Shown: positions 1 through 12,571 of the stretch, one piece after another
Layout: each line of letters starts with the position of its first letter
Position numbering within the stretch: the first letter of the stretch is position 1
Assembly: GCA_022827025.1 (NCBI GenBank)
Contig: JAJDTT010000254.1
Coordinates: forward strand, 1-40,402
Length of the DNA stretch: 40,402 bases
Reading direction: 5' to 3'
DNA from: Acidobacteriota bacterium
GTDB lineage: Bacteria > Acidobacteriota > UBA6911 > RPQK01 > JAJDTT01
The notes under the pieces: generated by a model
Told to the model about the DNA's origin: nothing
Seen by the model: the letters and a program-made list of their open reading frames with translations, nothing else
Databases searched by the model: none
Program-made: the position numbers and the translations under genes

Positions 1-234
1 AACGAGTTCGGAGAGGAGATCGTCAGCGTAGTTCTCCCGGACGGCGTCGTCCCGCAGACCATCGACGACACGCCGCTCCCCTGGCGGGTCAACTTCTACT
101 CCAACGGCCGCAGCTCCGGCGGCGCCATCGGCCTGGTCAACCGGCAGGAAAAGCGCCTCTACGTCACCGCCGACCCCGTCACCGGCCTGGCCAAGGTGTC
201 TCCGGCCCTCGAACTCCAAGGGAGACCCCGATGA
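1..234 (+). CDS. gspH: Type II secretion pseudopilin GspH, C-terminal part (5' end outside window)
   Basis: The frame is open from the first base and ends in TGA at 232-234, giving 77 residues of a C-terminus. The motif SSGGAIGLVNRQEKR followed by LYVTADPVTGLAKVS is the typical end of GspH/FimT-type minor pseudopilins, where the last beta strands carry a Gly-rich turn and a V-DP-TG-V motif. GspH would be a periplasmic, inner-membrane-anchored minor subunit of the type II secretion pseudopilus. Its stop codon overlaps the ATG of the next gene (ATGA at 231-234), so gspH and gspI are translationally coupled. The family assignment also rests on gspI, gspJ and gspK following directly. The prepilin leader is outside the window. 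Confidence 0.85.
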   Translation, partial: NEFGEEIVSVVLPDGVVPQTIDDTPLPWRVNFYSNGRSSGGAIGLVNRQEKRLYVTADPVTGLAKVSPALELQGRPR

Positions 235-302
235 TGAAAGGAGGGGCGATGATGAAAGGAGGGGCGATGACGAAAGGAGGGGCGATGACGAAAGGAGGGG
301 CG
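231..302 (+). repeat. Four tandem 18-bp units, each carrying a Shine-Dalgarno and start codon
   Basis: The units at 231-248, 249-266, 267-284 and 285-302 are near-identical copies of ATGATGAAAGGAGGGGCG (third and fourth read ATGACG). Each has AAAGGAGG followed after a few bases by the ATG of the next unit, so the array is a ladder of ribosome binding sites and starts, all in the gspI frame. It encodes MMKGGA twice and MTKGGA twice, then runs into a hairpin repeat starting GGAGGGGCGATTTCC. Confidence 0.95.
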
Positions 303-1070
303 ATTTCCAATCGCCCACGGGAGGGGCGATTTCTAGTCGCCCCGAGAGGCGATTCCCAATCGCCGACTCCCCTTTCCCCCCTCCGGAGTCCGGCGCCTAA
401 AAGACGCCGCTCCTGTCGGCGCCCGGAAGGACGCCGTTCCCAGTCGGCGCCTGAAAGACGCCGCCCCGGACGCCGTTCCCGGTCGGCGGCTGGAAGACGG
501 CGGTTAGGAAACCGCCGCTCCGGACGCCGCTCCCAGCCGGCGCGTGAAACACGCCGGTCCTGTCGGCGCCCGGAAGGACGCCGATCCCAGTCGGCGCCTA
601 AAAGACGCCGCTCCACCGGCTTCACCCTCCTCGAAGTCCTGGTAGCCGTCTCCATTCTCGGACTCGGCGTCGCCGTCACCATGCAGACCTTCTCGGGAGG
701 CTTGAAGAACGTCCGGCGGATCGATCTGGCCCATCGGGCCATGACCCACGCCGAGAATGTCATGAACCGCCTTCTCAGCGACGAGGACCTGGTGGGCCCC
801 CTCCAGTTGGACGGGAATCTGGACGACGAGTTCGACTACACGGCAACGGTGGACTTCTGGGAGCCCCCCCGCCAGGGCCTCGCTCCGGAGATCGCCCTCC
901 CGCCCGTGAACCTCCTCCTGGTGCAGGTCCGCGTGCGCTACAAGAACGACCCCAACGGCAAGTTCTACACCGCCCGCTGCCTCAAGCTGGTCCCCGACCC
1001 CTACGCCGCCCCGGGAAACCGCGGCCGCCCCCAGAGCGAAATGGAAAGGATCCTCCGCGGTGGAAGATAG
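231..1070 (+). CDS. gspI: Minor pseudopilin GspI with a repeat-encoded giant leader
   Basis: Minor pseudopilin of the type II secretion pseudopilus tip. The prepilin peptidase motif G-FTLLE followed by a hydrophobic helix (VLVAVSILGLGVAV) is present, with Gly130 as the predicted cleavage residue and Glu at mature position 5. The mature part is about 149 residues, a normal GspI size. The leader is about 130 residues instead of the usual 6-25. It starts with four MMKGGA/MTKGGA units and continues as Arg/Pro/Ser-rich sequence encoded entirely by hairpin repeats. Between the last in-frame ATG (285) and Gly130 I see no ATG, GTG or TTG in frame, so translation must cross the repeats. The start at 231 is chosen because it overlaps the gspH stop. 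The alternative is a gene recently disrupted by repeats that happened to stay in frame. Confidence 0.85.
   Translation: MMKGGAMMKGGAMTKGGAMTKGGAISNRPREGRFLVAPRGDSQSPTPLSPLRSPAPKRRRSCRRPEGRRSQSAPERRRPGRRSRSAAGRRRLGNRRSGRRSQPARETRRSCRRPEGRRSQSAPKRRRSTGFTLLEVLVAVSILGLGVAVTMQTFSGGLKNVRRIDLAHRAMTHAENVMNRLLSDEDLVGPLQLDGNLDDEFDYTATVDFWEPPRQGLAPEIALPPVNLLLVQVRVRYKNDPNGKFYTARCLKLVPDPYAAPGNRGRPQSEMERILRGGR
303..616 (+). repeat. Hairpin repeat array inside the gspI leader
   Basis: The block starts with GGCGATTTCCAATCGCC-type palindromes and continues with units such as GGCGCCTAAAAGACGCC, GGCGCCTGAAAGACGCC and GGCGCGTGAAACACGCC, separated by short conserved spacers (for example GCTCC and the reverse of GACTGGGA). 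Most units are in the opposite orientation to those in gspJ. It ends within a few bases of the codons for the prepilin cleavage site. The frame stays open for over 300 bases and is extremely rich in Arg. Confidence 0.9.
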
Positions 1071-2031
1071 AACCGGCATATTTCCCACAAGGAGCGGCGT
1101 CCGGAGCGGCGTGTTTCACGCGCCGACTGGGAACGGCGTCCTTCCGGGCGCCACCCGGGGCGGCGTCTTTCAGGCGCCGACTGGGAATGGCGTCCTTCCG
1201 GGCGCCACCCGGAGCGGCGTGTCTCACGCGCCGACTGGGAACGGCGTCCGGAGCGGCGTCTTTCAGGCGCCGACTGGGACCGGCGTCCTTCCGGGCGCCA
1301 CCCCGACCAGCGTCTTTCACGCGCCGCCCCCCCCACCCCCCAACGCCGGCTTCACCCTCATGGAGCTCGTCGTCGCCTTCACCATCCTGGGACTGGTGGC
1401 CGGCATCGTCTTCTCCTCCTTCCGCCTGGCCCTCAACAGCTACCAGAAGAGCCAGACCCGCCTGGAGGAGGAGGCGGCCGAGAGAATCCTCGGAGACCAG
1501 GTCAAACGCCAGGTCGCCTCCCTCTACCCCCTGCGCCCGGTGGCGCCCCCGGACCGGACCGGCCTGGGCCCGGTGGAGCCTCCCACCCGCTTTCAGACGC
1601 CCCTCTTCTTCGGCACCCCTGATTCGGTCACCTTCATCACCGTGGCGCCTCTGGTCATGCATGAGACGCCCGGACTCACCGTAGTCCGTTACGGCCTGGC
1701 GGAGGACGAGTACGGAGACCGCTACATGGGTTCCATGGAGAGCCGTTTCGTGGGCCTGGACAGCTTCAACACCATGGTCCGGATTCCGGCCGGAAAGCCG
1801 CTGCCCCTGATCCGGGGCATCGACGCGCTGGAGTTCCAGTACTACGGCTACGACCCGCGCCAGCGGGCGTTCGCCTGGTTCCCGGAATGGCTGGGAGAGG
1901 AAATGCAGTCCGTGCCTCGGGCCATCCGCATCGTTCATAACAGAGGGGAGGTCTTCGCCTCCGTCAACGCCAGCTTCATCGGGAGGCGGGCAAGGTCGAA
2001 CCGGGTATTCGGAACGGCGGCGGATCAATGA
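1060..2031 (+). CDS. gspJ: Minor pseudopilin GspJ with a repeat-encoded long leader
   Basis: Minor pseudopilin of the type II secretion pseudopilus. The cleavage motif G-FTLMELVVAFTILGL has Gly97 as last leader residue and Glu5 of the mature chain, and the mature part is about 226 residues, typical for GspJ. The start is GTG at 1060, which overlaps the gspI stop (1068-1070) and has AAGGA at 1046-1050. The 97-residue leader consists of repeats of an 18-residue unit like SGVFHAPTGNGVLPGATR, encoded by a 54-bp DNA unit. In-frame GTG codons at 1111 and 1219 are possible later starts, but even the latter leaves a 44-residue, repeat-encoded leader. It overlaps gspK by four bases (2028-2031). Confidence 0.88.
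   Translation: MEDRTGIFPTRSGVRSGVFHAPTGNGVLPGATRGGVFQAPTGNGVLPGATRSGVSHAPTGNGVRSGVFQAPTGTGVLPGATPTSVFHAPPPPPPNAGFTLMELVVAFTILGLVAGIVFSSFRLALNSYQKSQTRLEEEAAERILGDQVKRQVASLYPLRPVAPPDRTGLGPVEPPTRFQTPLFFGTPDSVTFITVAPLVMHETPGLTVVRYGLAEDEYGDRYMGSMESRFVGLDSFNTMVRIPAGKPLPLIRGIDALEFQYYGYDPRQRAFAWFPEWLGEEMQSVPRAIRIVHNRGEVFASVNASFIGRRARSNRVFGTAADQ
1091..1325 (+). repeat. 54-bp-period hairpin array inside the gspJ leader
   Basis: Alternating hairpins of the types GGCGTGTTTCACGCGCC or GGCGTCTTTCAGGCGCC and GGCGTCCTTCCGGGCGCC are joined by the spacer GACTGGGAAC. The full unit is 54 bp, a multiple of three, so copy-number changes leave the gspJ frame intact. The last hairpin ends at about 1325, separated from the prepilin cleavage codons only by a C-rich stretch encoding six prolines. 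Confidence 0.92.
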
Positions 2032-3035
2032 ACGGCAATCGATCGAACACCGGCGGCGGCGACCGCGGCGCCGTCCTCGTCCTCGTCCTCTGGGTGATGC
2101 TGGCCCTGGGACTGTTGGCGCTGAGCTTCGGCGCGGCCATCCGCACCGAGATCGACGCCACCCGCAACCTGGTGGACCAGAAGCGGGCGCACTACCTGGC
2201 CCGCGCCGGAATCGACTACGCCGTCTATCGGATCGTCGAATCCCAGATGGCCTTCGCCAAGAGCCGTCAGCGCATGGAGATGGGGCCGGGATCGGTCCCC
2301 GAGATCATGACCGGCGTCGTCACCCTGCGGTTGGGACCCGATGTCGCCGACGTCCAGGTGGTGGACGAGACCGGGAAGATCAACCTGAACACGGCGCCCT
2401 CCCACCTGATCTACAACCTCCTGATCACGGTGGGAATGGATCCGGACGGGGCCGACAGCCTCACCGATTCCATCGAGGACTGGAGGGACCCCGACGAGTT
2501 CCTCCGGCCCAACGGGGCCGAGAGCGGCTACTACCTTTCGCTCCCGCAGCCCTACTACGCCAAGAACGGCCCCTTCGACGTCCCCGAAGAGCTGCTCCTG
2601 GTGCGGGGCGTGACCCCCGAGATCTACTACGGCCGGAAGGGCCTGACGCCCGAAGGCGACCGCGTGGAGTACTTCGGTCTGGGCAAGTACCTGACCGTCT
2701 TCAGCAAGGTGAACCGGATCAACGTCAACTCGGCCCCGGTCCCGGTCCTGGCCGCCATCCCCGGCCTGACCTACGAGACGGCCCTGGTCATCGACGAAAT
2801 GCGCCGCCAGTTCCCCCTGGGCGACGTCAACACCGCATTGACCCGGATCCCGGGCCTGCCCACGGACACGGCCTCCTATCTCTCGACCCTTCGATCCAAC
2901 GTCTACAACCTGATCAGCACCGGCCACGTCTCCGGCTCGGAAGTCGCCGGCCGCATCAACGCCGTCGTCCAGATCGGAGTCGGAATCAAGCAGTATGCTG
3001 TCCTCTACTGGAATGAAGCCAACACCGAACTCTAG
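2028..3035 (+). CDS. gspK: Minor pseudopilin GspK
   Basis: The 335-residue protein begins with a short leader ending at Gly14 (DRG-AVLVLVLWVMLALGLLALSF), then a hydrophobic helix. As usual for GspK, the mature position 5 is not Glu. Downstream, LVDQKRAHYLARAGIDYAVYR and VVDETGKINLNTAP, with two helix-hairpin-helix-like segments (INLNTAP and INVNSAPVPVLAAIPGL), match the large globular GspK domain that caps the pseudopilus with GspI and GspJ. The start ATG overlaps the gspJ stop. This gene has an ordinary leader free of repeats, in contrast to its two upstream neighbours. Confidence 0.93.
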   Translation: MNGNRSNTGGGDRGAVLVLVLWVMLALGLLALSFGAAIRTEIDATRNLVDQKRAHYLARAGIDYAVYRIVESQMAFAKSRQRMEMGPGSVPEIMTGVVTLRLGPDVADVQVVDETGKINLNTAPSHLIYNLLITVGMDPDGADSLTDSIEDWRDPDEFLRPNGAESGYYLSLPQPYYAKNGPFDVPEELLLVRGVTPEIYYGRKGLTPEGDRVEYFGLGKYLTVFSKVNRINVNSAPVPVLAAIPGLTYETALVIDEMRRQFPLGDVNTALTRIPGLPTDTASYLSTLRSNVYNLISTGHVSGSEVAGRINAVVQIGVGIKQYAVLYWNEANTEL

Positions 3036-3439
3036 AACCCGCGATCTCCAATCCCCAAGGAGCGTCGTCGTCCACGCGCCGACCGGGAACGGCGTCCGGA
3101 GCGGCGGTTTCCTAACCGCCGTCTTCCAGCCGCCGACTGGGACCACCGTCCGGAGCGGCGTCGTCCCCGGCGCCGACTGGGAAAGGCGTCCGGAGCGGCG
3201 TCGTCCTCGGCGCCGACTGGGATCGGCGTCCGGAGCGGCGTCGTCCTCGGCGCCGACTGGGATCGGCGTCCTTCCGGGCGCCGATCCTCTCCCCCGTGCA
3301 ACAACCCCCCAAACAGCCACACCTCAAAGTGGCCGCATCCGGAGGGGCGGACAGCAAAGCCCCCCCTCCTGCAAACCAAAAAAAGAAGGCGGGACAGGAA
3401 AGTCCCCCCTCCTGTCCCCCCAAGAGGTAACCATCAACC
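3036..3439 (+). repeat. Repeat-filled gspK-gspL intergenic region
   Basis: 3059-3282 carries hairpins GGCGGTTTCCTAACCGCC and, from about 3158, nearly identical 40-bp units (GGAGC, then GGCGTCGTCCTCGGCGCC, then GACTGGGATC, then GGCGTCC). 3342-3418 carries a second, G/C-run type of hairpin (GGGACAGGAAAGTCCCC and relatives). A convincing promoter was not seen. No gene is supported here. A weak purine stretch (AAGAGG, about 3423-3428) precedes the gspL ATG. Confidence 0.9.
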
Positions 3440-5656: not shown

Positions 5657-6447
5657 GGCAAGGAATCCTTTTGCTCAACCTGTTGCTGGTGGCGGGCGTC
5701 GGCCTGTTGGGCCAGCGCCTGATCTCGGACTGGCGCCATTTCCGGGAGTCCACGCGCCAGGACGTCTACCAGCGGATCAACCGGGGTCCCGCGCCGCGCG
5801 AGGACGCCTCCTTCAGGCAGGAGCCGACGCGGCCCTTCAACGACTACCTGGAGATCCACGAGAGAAACCTGTTCAAGCCGGAACGCCGGCCGGACCCGGT
5901 GGGTACCGGAACCCCCGCGCCCCCCCGGAAGCCCCCGCCGCTGCCCATCAAGCCGACTCTGCACGGGGTGTCCACCATCCGGGGCGAGCAGAGGGCATTC
6001 CTGACGGTCTTCGCGGGGAAGAAGAACCAGGGAGAGTCCCGGACGGTGATGCTGGGAGACCCGGTGCAGGGGTACCGGGTGGGTGAGATTACGCCGACCA
6101 CGGTCACCCTGGTATGGAACCATCACACCGAGCTGATCGACATCATGGACTCCAGGAAGGGCAAGCAGCCCAAGAAGTCGGCGGCCCGGAAGGCCGGAGG
6201 CGGCGCGGTCAACATCGTGACCGTCGGTTCCACGCGGGCCGCCGTGGAGACGGTGGCCGCAGCGGTCCCGCCCGCCGAAGAGGCGGCCCGCGCGGCCGTG
6301 AGTCCCACCGCCGCGCAACAACGGGTCCGGTCCGGTGGAGCCGCCGCCCGGGGCCGCACCACCCTCACCGGCCGCCAGGGCGCCGCCCGCGGCCGCACCG
6401 GAGCCGCGAGGCGCCCCGTCTATGGCACCGCCGCGACCCCGAGATGA
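5653..6447 (+). CDS. gspC: GspC-like inner-membrane component with a basic low-complexity tail
   Basis: The 264-residue protein has an N-terminal membrane helix (residues 4-22), a conserved GspC/PilP-like segment (FNDYLEIHERNLFKPERRP, about 62-80), and a small beta domain (about 103-164, LHGVSTIRGEQRAFLTVF through TTVTLVWNHHTELIDI) that corresponds to the homology region contacting the secretin N0 domain. There is no PDZ domain. Instead residues from about 168 to the end are Ala/Arg/Gly-rich and strongly basic, apparently disordered. The gene overlaps gspM and precedes gspD, as expected for the GspC-GspD pair. It could equally be named a PilP-like pilotage protein; the role is the same. Confidence 0.75.
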   Translation: MRQGILLLNLLLVAGVGLLGQRLISDWRHFRESTRQDVYQRINRGPAPREDASFRQEPTRPFNDYLEIHERNLFKPERRPDPVGTGTPAPPRKPPPLPIKPTLHGVSTIRGEQRAFLTVFAGKKNQGESRTVMLGDPVQGYRVGEITPTTVTLVWNHHTELIDIMDSRKGKQPKKSAARKAGGGAVNIVTVGSTRAAVETVAAAVPPAEEAARAAVSPTAAQQRVRSGGAAARGRTTLTGRQGAARGRTGAARRPVYGTAATPR

Positions 6448-6477
6448 GGAGCCGCGACTCCCAATCGCCAACGGAGC

Positions 6478-6629
6478 GGCGATTTCCAATCGCCGTCTTG
6501 GAGCGGCGATTTCTAATCGCCGGCCTGGAACGGCGATTTCTAGTCGCCAGTCAGGAACGGCGATTTCCAGTCGCCGTCTTGGAGCGGCGATTTCTAGTCG
6601 CCAATCAGGGACGGCGATTTCCAATCGCC
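6478..6629 (+). repeat. Six-hairpin array with exact 27-bp period between gspC and gspD
   Basis: Six 17-bp palindromes of the type GGCGATTTCCAATCGCC or GGCGATTTCTAGTCGCC start at 6478, 6505, 6532, 6559, 6586 and 6613. They are separated by 10-bp spacers that are similar but not identical (GTCTTGGAGC twice, GGCCTGGAAC, AGTCAGGAAC, AATCAGGGAC). A degenerate seventh unit precedes them. Together with flanks this accounts for most of the 292-bp gap between gspC and gspD. In RNA each unit would fold into a 7-bp stem with a 3-base loop. Confidence 0.97.
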
Positions 6630-6739
6630 GTCCCTGGCCACAACACCGAAACCGGCAAACGGCCTCCGCTCTTCCGGTTTGGAATATTTGATGTGAAACG
6701 TGTCCAACACATGATGACGATTCCCAAGAGGTTCAAATA

Positions 6740-9535
6740 ATGCGTGCGTTGATCGCAGTAATTGTCATTCTTTTCGGCGGGGGCGAACTCTTCGCCGCCG
6801 CGCAGCGAGTCGGCTTCGCCCAAAGTTCCGGGACCACCCGGCAGCCGGGCCAGGAGCCGGTGATCGTCGACGACGGCTCCCGGAGCGCTCCCCCGGTGTT
6901 CGGCACCGCCGGCTCCGACTCGCAGGACCAGCTCCGGAAGCGGCGGCAGGCGCTGCAGGAGATGTATCGAAAAAAGGCTCAGGGAGACCGGGCCGCCTCC
7001 GGGACGACCCCGGCGGCAGGGTCCTCCGGAGACAAGCCCCGGACCGCGAACGGCGGCTCGAAGAGTTCCGGAAAGGGAAACGGCGGAGTCAAGCTGGCCT
7101 TCACCGACATGCCCGTCGACCGGGTGGTGAACGCCGTCATGACCGAGCTGGGTTATTCCTACGTCATCGATCCCGCCGTCTCCGGAACGGTGAGCCTGTT
7201 CACCATGGACGACATCCCCAAGAAGACCCTCTTCCGGGTCCTGGAGCAGGTGCTCAAGCTGGCGGGACAGGCCATCGTCAAGCAGGAGGGGATCTACGTG
7301 GTCCTGCCCATCGGCAAGAGTCCCCGCGTGCCGCACAAGATTCTGGCCCGGCCCTCCGGCGCGGGCCGTCCCGTCCCCGCTCCGGTCCAGGAGAAGCCGG
7401 ACGCCCGGGAGGAGGAGCCCGGCGCCTCGTCTCCGGGGCAGGAATCCTCCGAATCCGATCCCTCGGAAGGCGCCGCGACGGCGGTGTCTCCGGGGGGAAC
7501 CGCTCCCGCGCCGGGAGTGGCTCTCCCCGGAGAGACGAGAGTCGCCGCCGCGCCTGCTCAAGAGGGAGAAGCTCCCTCGCCGGAGCAGGCGGCGGCATCC
7601 CAGGCCACTCCCGGCCCCACGGTCCTGACGCCGGCGGAGTCGGAGGAGGCCCTCCGGCTGGAGGACGAAGAGGGCATCATCACTTACGTCATCCCCCTCC
7701 ACTACCTGCCCTCCGAAGACATGATCGAGATCGTGAAGCCCTTCGTCTCCGAGGGGGCCACCGTGGTCAACCTGGTCTCGGTCAACATCCTCCTGATCAC
7801 CGACTACCGCCGGAACATCCAGCAGGCCCTGAACCTGATCCGGATGCTGGACACCGAGTATTTCTCCATCAACACCGTCGATCTGATCACCATCCGGCAC
7901 AACCACGCCGTGGACGTGGCCTCCGACCTGAGCGCGGTCTTCTCTCCGAGTGAGAAGGGAGGCGGTGTGCGCATCGTCGCCATCGAGCGGCTCAACAGCA
8001 TCCTGGTGGTCACGCACGCGCCGGCGGTCCTGCAGGAGGTCAAGACCTGGGTCGCCAAGCTGGACACGCCTTCCACCAACACCAATCTCAAGACCTACGT
8101 CTACGAGGTGGAGAACAACACCGCCGCCTACATCGCGGACGTCCTGGGCCAGCTCTACTACCAGGGCATGGGCCTGCCCATGGGCGGGACCGATCCTGCG
8201 GACCCGGATTCGGGCGATCAGACCCGGCGAACGCCGACCCAGGACCCCGGCTTCCTCCGCCAGCAGCGGGGCTTCGGCGGCTATGGTGGTGGTTACGGGG
8301 GCTACGGAGGCGGCTACGGCGGGTACGGAGGCGGTGGCTACGGGGGTTATGGCGGCGGCTATGGCGGATACGGCGGTGGTGGTTACGGGGGCTACGGCGG
8401 CGGCTATGGCGGGTACGGCGGTGGTGGCTACGGGGGCTACGGGGGCGGCTACGGCGGGTACGGCGGTGGTGGCTATGGCGGTTACGGTGGCGGGTACGGC
8501 GGCGGAAGGGGCATGGGGCCCTCCCTGTTCGGGCGTTCCCTCAGCCGTCCGTCAGGCATCCGGGTGGTGAGCGCGGGAGACATCCGCATCGTCGTCAACG
8601 ATTTCAGCAACTCCCTGATCATCCAGTCCACGGAGGCGGACTACCGTTTTCTGCTGGAGACCATCCGCCAACTGGACAAGCTGCCGCGCCAGGTCTTCAT
8701 GGAGGCCAGGATCTACTCGGTGGAGCTGCGGGACGACCTCAGCTTCGGAGTGGCGGCCTTCCTCCGGGGGCGGCAGGCCGACGCCACGGGACCGCCCACC
8801 ACCGGCAGCATCTCCGGAACGTCCGATGGGGGCGGCGGAGGGGGCGCCCTGTCCGTGGTGACCAAGGCCTTCATCGGGGCGCAACGGGAACTGGAGGCCG
8901 CCATCACCGCGCTCCGGTCCCGGACCAAGGTGGAGATCCTGGAGGCTCCCACGCTGCTGGCGGTGGACGGCATGCAGGCCCGGATCAACGTGGGCGCCGA
9001 GGTCCCGGTCACGACCGCCTCCTATGGAGACCCCATCACTTCGGGAGTCGCCAGCGCCTTCGCCAACAGCATCAACTATCGTCCCACCGGGACCTCCGTC
9101 CTGATCATGCCCCGCACCAGCGCCAGCGGCATCGTGACCATGGACCTGGCCATCGAGGTCAGCCAGGCCGCGGGCTCGTCCCTCACCCCCACCATCAGCC
9201 AGAACTACGTGGAGACCTCCCTCATCGTCCGGGACGGCGAGACGGTGGCCATCGCGGGCATCATCAGCGACATCAACGACCGCACCCGCAACCGGATCCC
9301 GGTGCTGGGGGACATCCCCGTGGTGGGGGCCCTCTTCGGACGGACCACCAAGAGCAAGCGCCGCTCCGAGCTGGTCGTCTTCATCACCCCCCACGTCATC
9401 CACGGCCTGCCCACCACCGTCGAGCTCACCCTGGACTTCAAGCGCGCATTGCGCAATGCCTACCACACCATCAACCGCAAGGAACAGGAACACCGCGACC
9501 TGATCCAAAGACGCAAGAACGAAGAAGGGCGTTAG
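6740..9535 (+). CDS. gspD: Type II secretion outer-membrane secretin GspD
   Basis: The 931-residue secretin has a signal peptide (residues about 1-20). The N0 domain is at about 117-190 (KLAFTDMPVDRVVNAVMTELGYSYVIDP). A Pro/Glu/Ala linker of about 110 residues follows, then N1 (about 312-375), N2 (about 376-440), N3 from about 445, and the secretin barrel (about 655-895, with VEILEAPTLLAVDGMQARINVGAEVP, ETSLIVRDGETVAIAGI and RIPVLGDIPVVGALFG). It forms the outer-membrane channel through which folded substrates leave the periplasm. N3 is interrupted by a Gly/Tyr-rich tract at about 512-591. AGAGG at about 6726 lies upstream of the ATG. It is longer than the usual 650-750 residues because of the linker and the tract. 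Confidence 0.95.
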   Translation: MRALIAVIVILFGGGELFAAAQRVGFAQSSGTTRQPGQEPVIVDDGSRSAPPVFGTAGSDSQDQLRKRRQALQEMYRKKAQGDRAASGTTPAAGSSGDKPRTANGGSKSSGKGNGGVKLAFTDMPVDRVVNAVMTELGYSYVIDPAVSGTVSLFTMDDIPKKTLFRVLEQVLKLAGQAIVKQEGIYVVLPIGKSPRVPHKILARPSGAGRPVPAPVQEKPDAREEEPGASSPGQESSESDPSEGAATAVSPGGTAPAPGVALPGETRVAAAPAQEGEAPSPEQAAASQATPGPTVLTPAESEEALRLEDEEGIITYVIPLHYLPSEDMIEIVKPFVSEGATVVNLVSVNILLITDYRRNIQQALNLIRMLDTEYFSINTVDLITIRHNHAVDVASDLSAVFSPSEKGGGVRIVAIERLNSILVVTHAPAVLQEVKTWVAKLDTPSTNTNLKTYVYEVENNTAAYIADVLGQLYYQGMGLPMGGTDPADPDSGDQTRRTPTQDPGFLRQQRGFGGYGGGYGGYGGGYGGYGGGGYGGYGGGYGGYGGGGYGGYGGGYGGYGGGGYGGYGGGYGGYGGGGYGGYGGGYGGGRGMGPSLFGRSLSRPSGIRVVSAGDIRIVVNDFSNSLIIQSTEADYRFLLETIRQLDKLPRQVFMEARIYSVELRDDLSFGVAAFLRGRQADATGPPTTGSISGTSDGGGGGGALSVVTKAFIGAQRELEAAITALRSRTKVEILEAPTLLAVDGMQARINVGAEVPVTTASYGDPITSGVASAFANSINYRPTGTSVLIMPRTSASGIVTMDLAIEVSQAAGSSLTPTISQNYVETSLIVRDGETVAIAGIISDINDRTRNRIPVLGDIPVVGALFGRTTKSKRRSELVVFITPHVIHGLPTTVELTLDFKRALRNAYHTINRKEQEHRDLIQRRKNEEGR
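8271..8510 (+). repeat. 45-bp tandem coding repeat: Gly/Tyr-rich insert in GspD
   Basis: A run of about 80 residues of GYGG/GGGY units, with a 15-residue (45-bp) higher-order period repeated about four times, sits inside the N3 domain of GspD. The codons differ between units mostly at third positions (GGC, GGG, GGT; TAC, TAT), which indicates that the amino-acid sequence is kept. Gly-rich loops occur in N3 of some secretins; this one is unusually long and regular. Confidence 0.95.
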
Positions 9536-9695
9536 GAGCCTGAGTGGCAGGAATTGATCTACTGCGAAAGCGGTGAATCGGTCCATATTTCCTCGATTTC
9601 CCGGCGAATAGAACGACTATGCACCTCCAAATCAAGAAAATCCGGCCTCGATTCCCCACTTTCTCGCTACGATCATTTCTACCGCGCAGACTCCT
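9534..9695 (+). mobile_element. MITE-like element, copy 2, with imperfect terminal inverted repeats
   Basis: The 162-bp element has ends that are inverted repeats of about 25 bp: AGGAGCCTGAGTGGCAGGAA at 9534 and, reading inward from 9695, AGGAGTCTGCGCGGTAGAAA. It matches the reverse complement of 4910-5050. It overlaps the gspD stop codon and carries no credible gene. Non-autonomous, probably mobilised in trans; no transposase with matching ends is visible in the window. Confidence 0.8.
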
Positions 9696-9846
9696 GAGAA
9701 AAACATGGGCGCCCCTCGGAGGGGGGACATTCTTGTCCCCCTCTTCGCCGCCGGATCGGAACCGCCGACTGGAAAGCCTCCGTTCCCAGGCCGCCTTTTT
9801 CTCGCAGGATTTCGCCGGACCGGGGCCGGTGGGGGAGCTCCTGAAA
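9696..9846 (-). repeat. Variant copy of the 200-bp GGAGCTCC repeat before the DUF6807 gene
   Basis: In reverse complement this begins GGAGCTCCCCCACCGGCCCC and ends with GGGGGACAAGAATGTCCCCC and CATGTTTTTCTCAG, like the copies at 12198-12397 and 39892-40090. Its middle part is shorter and different (it contains a CCAGTCGGCGGTT segment of the REP family). It ends four bases before the next gene's ATG and so supplies that gene's ribosome-binding region. Together with the element before it, it fills the 311-bp gap after gspD. Confidence 0.85.
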
Positions 9847-10815
9847 ATGAAGCGCATCGTGTCTGCCGCGTTGCTTCTGATCGGACTCGTTCCGTCCGCC
9901 GCCTCAGCCGGATCTCCCCACCCGATCCGCCTCGTCAAGACCGACGCGGCGCATGTGGACATCTACGCCGGCGAGACCCTCTTCGCCTCCTACCACTACG
10001 GCATCGGCCTGCACAAACCGATCCTCCATCCGTTGCTCAGCCCCGGGGGACACCGGATCACCCGGGGATTCCCCATGGAGTTCGGCATCCCCGGCGAGCA
10101 GACCGACCACTGGCAACACGAGGGCGTCTTCCTCACCTACCGCAACGTCAACGGCGTGGACTTCTGGTCCAAGTTTCCTCCCACGCGAGACCGGCCCGGC
10201 AGCGGCCGGATCCGCCACACCGGCTTCACCAGAATGGAAGGCGGGCCGCAAGGGATCTTGGGCACGACATCCAACTGGATCGCCCCCACCGGTCAGATCC
10301 TGCTCCGGCAGAATTCTCAAATGACCATCCGGGCCGGACCCGCCTGGCGAACCCTGGATTTGCAGATCACCCTGACCGCCCAAGAGCAGCCCGTCACCTT
10401 CGGCGACATCGAGGAGGGTCTGCTGGCCATCCGCGTCGCCTCCGATCTGCGCGAGGACCGCACCGGCCGCTACCTCAACGCCGAAGGCCTGGAACTCGCG
10501 GAAAACGTCTGGGGTAAACGCTCTCCCTGGGTCGCCCTGCGCGGAACAATCCAGGACGAGGACCTCACCCTGGCCATCCTGAACCATCCCCGCAGCACCC
10601 GGTATCCCACCTACTGGCACGCCCGCGCCTACGGCCTCTTCGCCGCCAACCCCTTCGGCCGGGCCGATTTCGAAAAGGGCGCCCCGCCCCTCAACTTCTC
10701 CCTGAACCCCGGCGAATCCGCCACCTTCCTCTACCGCATCCTCATCCACTCCGGCCACCTCACCCGCTCCCAGCTAAAAAACAACTTCACCAACTACCGC
10801 CTGGAATCAAAGTAA
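9847..10815 (+). CDS. Secreted DUF6807 (PmoA-like) family protein
   Basis: The 322-residue protein starts at an ATG followed by a clear signal peptide (MKRIVSAALLLIGLVPSAASA). The rest (YHYGIGLHKPILHPLLSPGGHRITRGFPME, then EQTDHWQHEGVFLTYRNVNGVDFW, ending NPGESATFLYRILIHSGH) matches the DUF6807 family, also called PmoA in some databases; it is not a membrane methane monooxygenase subunit. Biochemical function is unknown; such proteins are predicted beta-sandwich proteins found with carbohydrate enzymes. An in-frame extension back to 9619 is rejected because it lies in repeat DNA and would bury the signal peptide. Export makes it a possible client of the adjacent secretion system (inference). 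Confidence 0.82.
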   Translation: MKRIVSAALLLIGLVPSAASAGSPHPIRLVKTDAAHVDIYAGETLFASYHYGIGLHKPILHPLLSPGGHRITRGFPMEFGIPGEQTDHWQHEGVFLTYRNVNGVDFWSKFPPTRDRPGSGRIRHTGFTRMEGGPQGILGTTSNWIAPTGQILLRQNSQMTIRAGPAWRTLDLQITLTAQEQPVTFGDIEEGLLAIRVASDLREDRTGRYLNAEGLELAENVWGKRSPWVALRGTIQDEDLTLAILNHPRSTRYPTYWHARAYGLFAANPFGRADFEKGAPPLNFSLNPGESATFLYRILIHSGHLTRSQLKNNFTNYRLESK

Positions 10816-11230
10816 CAACCCCGCATCCCCCCCCACCAAGCAACGCCGCATTTCACACGCCAAGGAGCGACGTCGTCCGGAGCGGCGTCGTCCCCGGCGC
10901 CGTCTTACGACCTCGCATTCAAAAAAAACCGGGCGGCCGCATTGTCTCTCCCTCCCTCAGCTCGTCCCCCCCGCACGGCGCGAAAGAGAGCGAACGGACC
11001 GACCTTCCCTCCAAAGCCAAAAGCCAGGACGTCGAGCCGCCGAGCTTCGAGTACACCCAACGCTCGAAAGAGGGCGCCAAGAATGACGCCCCTCCAAACG
11101 AGCAGCGCCCCTGAGGTCGCCGATTGGGAAAAGCCTCTCAAGCGGTGTGTTTCACGCGCCGACTGGGATCGTCGTCCGGAGCGGCGTCGTCCCCGGCGCC
11201 GACTGGGATCGGCGTCCTTCCGGGCGCCGA
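10816..11230 (+). repeat. Left inverted arm and REP hairpins, DUF6807-RAYT interval
   Basis: 10864-10914 holds REP hairpins (GGCGTCGTCCCCGGCGCC). 10915-11110 is the arm element, including the A-run near 10921 and CGCTCGAAAGAGGGCGCC. 11150-11230 is two further REP hairpins with GACTGGGAT spacers. No gene is supported in this stretch. Confidence 0.85.
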
Positions 11231-11242
11231 TCCCCGCGCGCC

Positions 11243-11926
11243 TCACCCACCAACCTTCCCACCACCACCCCTCTCGAAAAGGACAAACTCCCCCTCCCGC
11301 AACCCTGCTCTCCCCGGGTTCTCTCGGATGTACTCCAAGCAATTCAAATAGTGTTCCGGATTCCTGATCAGGCGGTCCCAATAGTCTTTCTGCCAGAGTT
11401 TGCCCGAGGTTCCGGTCTTTTTTCTGATCTGATGGCCCGTAAATCCCTTCCAGCAACTCAAGATATTTCCGAGTCGGTGACGGCCAAGAGGCCGAAACAG
11501 CACATGGACATGGTTGGGCATTACGACGAATGAGGACAGTTCGTATCGCTGGCCATCGAAATATCGCAGTGCATCAGCCACGATCCTGGCCAATGCCGGA
11601 TCCTTCAGGATGCAGGATCCGCTCCCCTGATCCAACCAGTCCTCGATCCGTTGAAGAAAACGATCGTGGTAGCGCCTCGCCGTCTGAGAATTCCAAGGTC
11701 GAGGATTGTTTTTCAACCAGAGCGCGCGCTCTTCCCGCCACTGAACCAATTTTGCCTCGGGGAGCGAGTCTCCCAGGCGCCATGTCACAAAGATGAACTT
11801 GTGACCCTGTTGCCAGTGCGGCAGCCGATTTCGGCGAACTTCAACGGCTGCGTACGGGTCGAGATAAGAGTGGTTGCCTGGGAGGAGCGGGTTTGGAGCA
11901 AAGGGGTGCTTGGAATTGTATGGCAT
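11243..11926 (-). CDS. REP-associated tyrosine transposase (RAYT, HUH/Y1 superfamily)
   Basis: The 227-residue protein starts at the ATG encoding MPYNSKHPF. It carries the HUH motif in SSFVVMPNHVHVLFRP (His139 and His141), and GKLWQKDYWDRLIRNPEHY with LNCLEYIRENPGRAGL in the region that holds the catalytic tyrosine of this family; Tyr182 in DYWDR is the likeliest nucleophile. PHWQQGHKFIFVTWRLGDSLP near the N-terminus is typical of RAYTs. Family members are usually single-copy, vertically kept genes that act on REP palindromes. The frame continues upstream through the right repeat arm, but that part is not family-like and is excluded. All core motifs appear intact. No strong ribosome site is seen before the chosen ATG. 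Confidence 0.9.
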   Translation of the reverse strand: MPYNSKHPFAPNPLLPGNHSYLDPYAAVEVRRNRLPHWQQGHKFIFVTWRLGDSLPEAKLVQWREERALWLKNNPRPWNSQTARRYHDRFLQRIEDWLDQGSGSCILKDPALARIVADALRYFDGQRYELSSFVVMPNHVHVLFRPLGRHRLGNILSCWKGFTGHQIRKKTGTSGKLWQKDYWDRLIRNPEHYLNCLEYIRENPGRAGLREGEFVLFERGGGGKVGG

Positions 11927-11980
11927 ACGGTTCCAAACGATTGGTGGGTAGAAATGTGCGAAGGAAATGACGTGGGAGGG

Positions 11981-12197
11981 GGAGCGGCGCCCGGAAGGAC
12001 GCCGGTCCCAGTCGGCGCCGGGGACGCCGCCGCTCCGGACGTCTTTCCCAGTCGGCGCGTGAAACACGCCGAGACGCTTTTCCCAATCGGCGACCTCAGG
12101 GTCGCTGCTCGTTTGGAGGGGCGTCATTCTTGGCGCCCTCTTTCGAGCGTTGGGTGTGCTCGAAGCTCGGCGGCTGGACGTCTTGGGGCTTTTCTTC
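11981..12197 (-). repeat. Right inverted arm, proximal part, upstream of the RAYT gene
   Basis: REP hairpins (GGCGCCCGGAAGGACGCC and GGCGCGTGAAACACGCC) are followed by the element with TCGTTTGGAGGGGCGTCA and TCGAAGCTCGGCGGCTGGAC. It is the inverted counterpart of 11024-11230, near-identical over about 200 bp. The interval 11927-11980 is a short unremarkable leader. Confidence 0.9.
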
Positions 12198-12397
12198 GGA
12201 GCTCCCCCACCGGCCCCGGTCCGGCAAAATCCTGCGTGAAAAGGAGTGGGGGTTTTCCTACCCCCACTCCCTCGGGGGGACTGAAAGTCCCCCCTCCTAT
12301 CCGCCCAACTCCGGCCCCACCGGGGCCCAGCGAAAGCAACCGTAGAGAAGAGGGGGACAAGAATGTCCCCCCTCCGGGTGCCCCATGGTTTTCTCAG
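12198..12397 (+). mobile_element. 200-bp GGAGCTCC repeat nested in the right RAYT arm
   Basis: It begins GGAGCTCCCCCACCGG and ends CATGGTTTTCTCAG, and is nearly identical to 39892-40090. It contains three strong hairpins: GGAGTGGGGGTT/CCTACCCCCACTCC, GGGGGGACTGAAAGTCCCCC and GGGGGACAAGAATGTCCCCC. It splits the arm element: the sequence before (TTTTCTTC) and after (CGAAGGGA) is contiguous in the uninterrupted copy at 34255-34481. This shows insertion of one repeat family into another. Confidence 0.88.
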
Positions 12398-12536
12398 ACG
12401 AAGGGAGATCGGTCCTTCCGTTCGTTTTCGGGCTGGGGGAGGGGTGAAAAAGAACACGGGCGGGGAGAGCCGATGCGGCCGTCCGGTTTTTCTTGAATGC
12501 GAGGTCGTAAGACGGCGCCAAGGATGACGCCGCTCC
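12398..12536 (-). repeat. Right inverted arm, distal part
   Basis: This continues the arm element interrupted at 12198, through CGGTTTTTCTTGAATGCG and GGTCGTAAGACGGCGCC to CGCCGCTCC at 12536. It matches 34341-34481 closely and the reverse complement of about 10879-11010. The acyl-CoA dehydrogenase stop codon is 36 bp further on, and a small palindrome (CATGGATACTCCATG) lies between; part of it recurs near 40187. Confidence 0.88.
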
Positions 12537-12571
12537 TTCACTTGCAACATGGATACTCCATGTCGCCGCTT

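Follow-up and report, generated by a model that had tools for sequence, protein, structure and literature searches.

Two neighbouring minor pseudopilin genes of a type II secretion system (T2SS) in an Acidobacteriota bacterium, gspI and gspJ, carry REP-like hairpin repeat arrays in frame between their start codons and the codons for the prepilin cleavage site, which gives leaders of 130 residues in gspI and up to 97 residues in gspJ. Among the arrays found in 1.41 Mb of the genome, those of gspI and gspJ are the only N-terminal ones with no start codon downstream of the array. Taken as a whole, the arrangement is best explained, with a probability that we put at about three in four, by insertion and expansion of REP-like elements in leaders that are cleaved from the product, have a pinned start and are kept in frame. 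The window (the whole 40,402-nucleotide stretch of DNA that was analysed) opens with the 3′ end of gspH (1–234, + strand, stop codon at 232–234), at a junction that is homologous in congeners, followed by gspI (231–1070, +), gspJ (1060–2031, +) and gspK (2028–3035, +) and then by gspL-, gspM-, gspC- and gspD-like genes. The secretin gene gspD contains a Gly/Tyr-rich tandem repeat of the GGYGGYGGG type with a 45-bp period (window 8270–8505).

Frame, start codons and cleavage sites

Both gspI and gspJ encode a class III signal peptide with the G↓F-x-x-x-E motif (N_methyl, PF07963; 29.8 and 29.1 bits, above the cut-off of 21.2), and a Peptidase_A24 prepilin peptidase gene is present in the genome. 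Curated family cut-offs are not reached by GspI (XpsI model, 48.2 of 150 bits; GspI model, 26 of 44.35 bits) or by GspJ (GspJ-type model, 20 of 295 bits). The names are used here because of the synteny gspG-H-I-J-K-L-M-C-D and order-wide conservation; strictly, the products are ‘GspI-like’ and ‘GspJ-like’. A preliminary description of this DNA had placed both arrays shortly before the cleavage-site codons and in frame with them, which is confirmed by their positions. Repeats in gspI occupy 229–614, and the Gly codon (618–620) of the cleavage site G↓FTLLEV (618–638, +) lies 3 bases past the array end; in gspJ, the Gly codon of G↓FTLMEL (1348–1368, +) is at 1348. The ordinary 14-residue leader reported for gspK was also recovered, and that gene has no array.

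The start codon of gspI, ATG 231, shares an ATGA with the gspH stop, and the leader counted from it, Gly included, is 130 residues long as originally described. The last in-frame ATG of gspI is at 285, in agreement with the earlier claim that no in-frame start follows that position, and extension of the scan to CTG, ATT, ATC and ATA added only ATT 303. Between 306 and 617 an in-frame scan for ATG, GTG, TTG, CTG, ATT, ATC and ATA found none, so a start just before the cleavage site, non-canonical codons included, was sought and not found. The frame in use has no stop codon in 231–617, whereas 8 and 4 stops interrupt the two remaining forward frames. Because no in-frame start lies past 303, the gspI array must be translated if gspI is made at all, and we infer translation from ATG 231. 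The mature part of gspI is under purifying selection (dN/dS 0.09–0.20 against three congeners), so the gene does not look dead. An AF2 model of GspI has an unstructured stretch at residues 1–130, a long helix at 133–183 and strands thereafter, with pLDDT of 82–97 across most of the mature part; it thus predicts a disordered leader with a pilin-like fold for the remainder. Foldseek gave no significant match with this model, and a GspI profile search for solved structures found none. The net charge of the gspI leader is +35 over 130 residues, which might be costly and counts against a near-neutral reading of the insertions.

For gspJ the evidence for translation of the array is weaker than for gspI. 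The previously given leader of 97 residues, counted from GTG 1060, is an upper limit, since starts at GTG 1111 or GTG 1219, both in frame, would give leaders of 80 or 44 residues, and the array has no stop codon in any forward frame. GTG 1060 is favoured as the start because it overlaps the end of gspI, as does the matching GTG in two congeners (G002 and G003). Mature gspJ, like mature gspI, is under purifying selection (dN/dS 0.07–0.14 against three congeners).

Repeat elements inside and outside the leaders

The array shared with gspJ makes up the distal part of the gspI leader (391–614, +; seven units with spacing 26/28/39/54/26/28); this part of the preliminary description stands, with the correction that 18-bp units and a second hairpin family precede it. 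Four tandem 18-bp units, each combining a Shine-Dalgarno-like AAAGGAGG with an ATG, lie at 229–304 (+) in frame with gspI; their four exact genome matches are all at this site, and they may represent a multiplied initiation site. Three hairpins of the second family, of GGCGATTTCCAATCGCC type, follow at 298–364 (+) and recur at window 6447–6636. The gspJ array (1084–1326, +; periods 54/39/93) belongs to the same family as that of gspI in inverted orientation, as had been proposed, with 81% complementarity between 391–614 and 1103–1326. Another array of this family lies between gspK and the gspL-like gene (3052–3290, +), with a period of 40, not a multiple of 3. Unit spacing taken in register, as centre-to-centre hairpin spacing is too noisy for a frame test, is 54/39/93 in the leaders compared with 40/55/56/67 in intergenic arrays, a difference that is suggestive of a frame constraint in the few arrays available. 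The gspI and gspJ leader RNAs fold more stably than shuffled sequences (z −3.3 and −3.2), and an Rfam search gave no match.

The array family has more than 160 copies in the genome (≤2 mismatches), compared with 7 for the reversed pattern, and so exceeds chance. In the genome-wide sample of 1.41 Mb (26% of the genome), 158 elements were found, nearly all of them intergenic; coding DNA, called with a codon model made for this analysis, holds 9.6% of element bases while making up 87% of the 1.41 Mb. Five of 43 gene-upstream arrays were flagged as having no start past the array; four of these have one on inspection, and gspI remains. gspJ lies outside this 43-array scan, the codon model having called its array coding. 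As N-terminal candidates, window 9691–9847 and loci L063, L072 and L074 were rejected, each having an ATG past the array, and the gspH array was rejected as a third leader case, with a conserved ATG directly past it. A few proteins have short in-frame element-derived tails at the C terminus, and one element lies within a long open reading frame, so leaders are not the sole tolerated site. At L080 (1864–1946) an in-frame repeat element is located between two apparent domains of a 1111-residue open reading frame.

A RAYT-like gene for a REP-associated tyrosine transposase is present in the window on the − strand (approximate core 11243–11940; mechanical reading frame 11243–12550), with matches to Y1_Tnp (24.5 bits) and to NF047646 (about 70.6–72.7 bits; curated cut-off 80). 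It is flanked by a REP doublet at 11160–11230 (−) and, on its other side, by inverted REP units at 11979–12070 (+). These units are of the leader-array family, and the whole (~11160–12070) forms a REPtron-like unit. Each of the four congeners also has RAYT-like genes, likewise with matches below the curated cut-off. The family is like REP/REPIN-RAYT systems (REPtrons) in consisting of short palindromes with many copies between genes, in its hairpin doublets at 28-bp spacing and in the Y1 transposase gene that has REPs in inverted orientation on either side. Of the GTAG or CGTC tag expected at the foot of REP hairpins, presence alone was scored: CGTC occurs in the REP-like units. Unlike the gspI and gspJ arrays, REPs are normally extragenic, and none of the RAYT matches reaches the curated cut-off.

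Leader length and repeat turnover in relatives

Leader length varies widely among congeners, the comparison for which the preliminary description had called. gspI leaders are 130 residues long in this genome (G000), 61 in G002, 28 in G001 and 20 in G003, while mature GspI is 88–93% identical among congeners spanning this range of 20–130 residues. For gspJ the corresponding lengths are 97 residues in this genome, 79–86 in G002 and 22–29 in G003. One degenerate hairpin is found in the gspI leader of G003 and exactly one hairpin in its gspJ leader; the gspI leader of G001 has two hairpins, and both G002 leaders carry a hairpin family that differs from that of G000. Wherever a congener has hairpins at one of these loci, their orientation is that seen at this locus in the others, a pattern suggestive of an ancestral insertion with later turnover. 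Frameshifted arrays, which would speak against translation, were sought in these relatives, and the leaders of G002, G003 and G001 are open and in phase. The exception is gspJ of G001, with a closed frame and a new start codon close to the Gly codon. At this gspI/gspJ junction (L018 1954–2041), AT-rich GGAATTTGGAATTT-type repeats close the frame, with the gspJ start apparently near the cleavage site.

GspI leaders of genomes beyond the genus are ordinary: in the phylum sample they place the nearest in-frame start 5–38 residues from the Gly, compared with 112 here and 59 in G002. Repeats of other kinds occupy gspJ leaders in further families of this order. Four f5 genomes have 7-bp tandem repeats in gspJ leaders of 27, 47, 77 and 45 residues, and the 105-residue gspJ leader of G005 contains a palindrome with 53-bp arms. 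The G005 gspI/gspJ junction (L021 1247–1476) holds a MITE-like palindrome with arms 94% complementary, open in the gspJ frame. All of these gspJ leaders are open in frame from a start that overlaps the gspI stop, and possible downstream starts exist in some of them (GTG18, TTG6, GTG27 and TTG34). They therefore support recurrence without proving it, and are weaker cases than gspI. The gspI/gspJ junctions of G009 and G011 are empty, with 9-residue leaders, and G009 has an apparent second gspI/gspJ copy (G009:C1:4295971-4296261). The stop/start overlap of gspI is at offset −1 in G000–G004, and that of gspJ is at offset −1 in G005, G007, G010, G013, G016, G009 and G011. Almost every leader with repeats carries a net positive charge, which is compatible with cytoplasmic retention of the leader.

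Proposed origin, alternatives and significance

In the explanation that we favour, REP-like elements, spread probably by RAYT-type transposases, would have inserted downstream of the start codon of gspI and gspJ, ahead of the codons for the cleavage site, and expanded there. In both genes the start appears to be fixed by overlap with the upstream stop through translational coupling. The overlapping stop/start codons of gspH-gspI and gspI-gspJ leave no intergenic DNA for repeats, and since the start is pinned, the leader would be the only dispensable stretch at these junctions. Prepilin peptidases cleave directly past the Gly on the cytoplasmic side (PMC10191384); if such long leaders are cleaved in the same way, the leader would be removed there and the mature pseudopilin left unchanged. 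Insertions that add whole codons, and later length changes of the same kind, would be nearly neutral because the leader is cut off, while out-of-frame insertions would kill the gene, with in-frame ones alone surviving. The reading of the leader as a safe harbour in which repeats can enter and grow, put forward in the preliminary description, is thus supported at the sequence level by the frame, the relatives and leader turnover, and is refined by the pinning of the start to the upstream stop. The gspH array counts against it: as this array sits upstream of a normal ATG, an element inserting at a junction does not have to land in a leader.

A selective role for the long leaders, in which the basic leader or its RNA hairpins tune targeting, translation, message stability or the GspI:GspJ ratio, would account for the stable folding of the leader RNAs, for the positive charge of nearly all leaders and for the multiplication of a Shine-Dalgarno and ATG module by the 18-bp units at the gspI start. 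Such a role appears unlikely given that leader length and sequence turn over, down to 20 residues in G003, at 88–93% mature identity, that the same hairpins recur at many unrelated intergenic sites, and that leader composition tracks array orientation and not the gene. The arrays could instead be untranslated, with a start near the cleavage site (non-canonical or by re-initiation) and a frame that is open by chance. Di Nocera and co-workers cautioned that for many REPs annotated as N-terminal the true start lies downstream, which makes them extragenic (PMC3733652), and gspH in this genus has an array with just such a start, while gspJ has GTG codons within its array. Against this stand the stretch of gspI from 306 to 617 with no in-frame start codon, the stops in two of its three frames, and the congener leaders with arrays, all in phase save gspJ of G001, which together make untranslated arrays quite improbable. 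Decay of the two genes, or arrays created by faulty assembly, is very unlikely. The assembly is fragmented (318 contigs), repeat arrays pose difficulties for assemblers and this contig begins within gspH, but the mature parts of both genes are intact and under purifying selection, both arrays are intact in frame, and the independent assemblies of G001–G003 have hairpins at the same junctions.

Precedents exist both for in-frame palindromic repeats within genes and for repeats where coupled genes overlap. Rickettsia palindromic elements (RPEs) and intragenic REPs are short palindromic repeats lying in frame in genes, some of them N-terminal (Di Nocera 2013, PMC3733652; review PMC10969869), with clusters encoding 43–82 residues (PMC3733652; PMC10969869). 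The arrays here resemble them by behaviour, in that insertion into the reading frame leaves the gene intact; they differ in that the extra sequence, up to about 130 residues, belongs to a prepilin leader that would be cut away, and in that two neighbouring genes are affected, together with relatives carrying unrelated repeat families. Mycobacterial interspersed repetitive units (MIRUs) sit where the stop and start codons of coupled genes overlap and are compatible with downstream expression (PMC12548453). The overlaps here (ATGA 231–234; GTG 1060 in the end of gspI), conserved in relatives, are of the same kind, but a MIRU carries its own reading frame coupled to the downstream gene, whereas here the repeats are the leader of the downstream protein itself: the frame of the gspI array does not end at the next start and runs stop-free into the mature protein. 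The Gly-Phe site, Glu5, the long hydrophobic helix and the prepilin peptidase in the genome are those of class III signal peptides of type IV pilins and T2SS pseudopilins, whose described leaders are short (8–18 residues in S. sanguinis; PMC6497953), unlike the 130 residues of gspI. Repeats in prepilin leaders have no precedent in the limited collection of literature that was searched. The novelty lies in their location, within a leader that the cell is expected to discard, in the leader length and in the recurrence with repeat classes unrelated to one another. On the broader proposition that the cleaved leaders of coupled pseudopilin genes are a general repeat refuge, repeatedly invaded by unrelated classes (REP arrays, heptamers and MITE-like palindromes), with selection holding the frame and leaders of 60–130 residues still being processed, we see the odds as evenly balanced.

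Genes of this type are otherwise liable to be trimmed or frameshifted in annotation, of which annotators should be warned. The proposed origin predicts that leader length variants would shift in multiples of three only, and the long leaders would probe the tolerance limit of Sec targeting and of the prepilin peptidase. The location of the repeats would be explained by the coupling of genes that have no intergenic space, and selfish repeats could grow within a conserved frame at little cost where the host removes the product.
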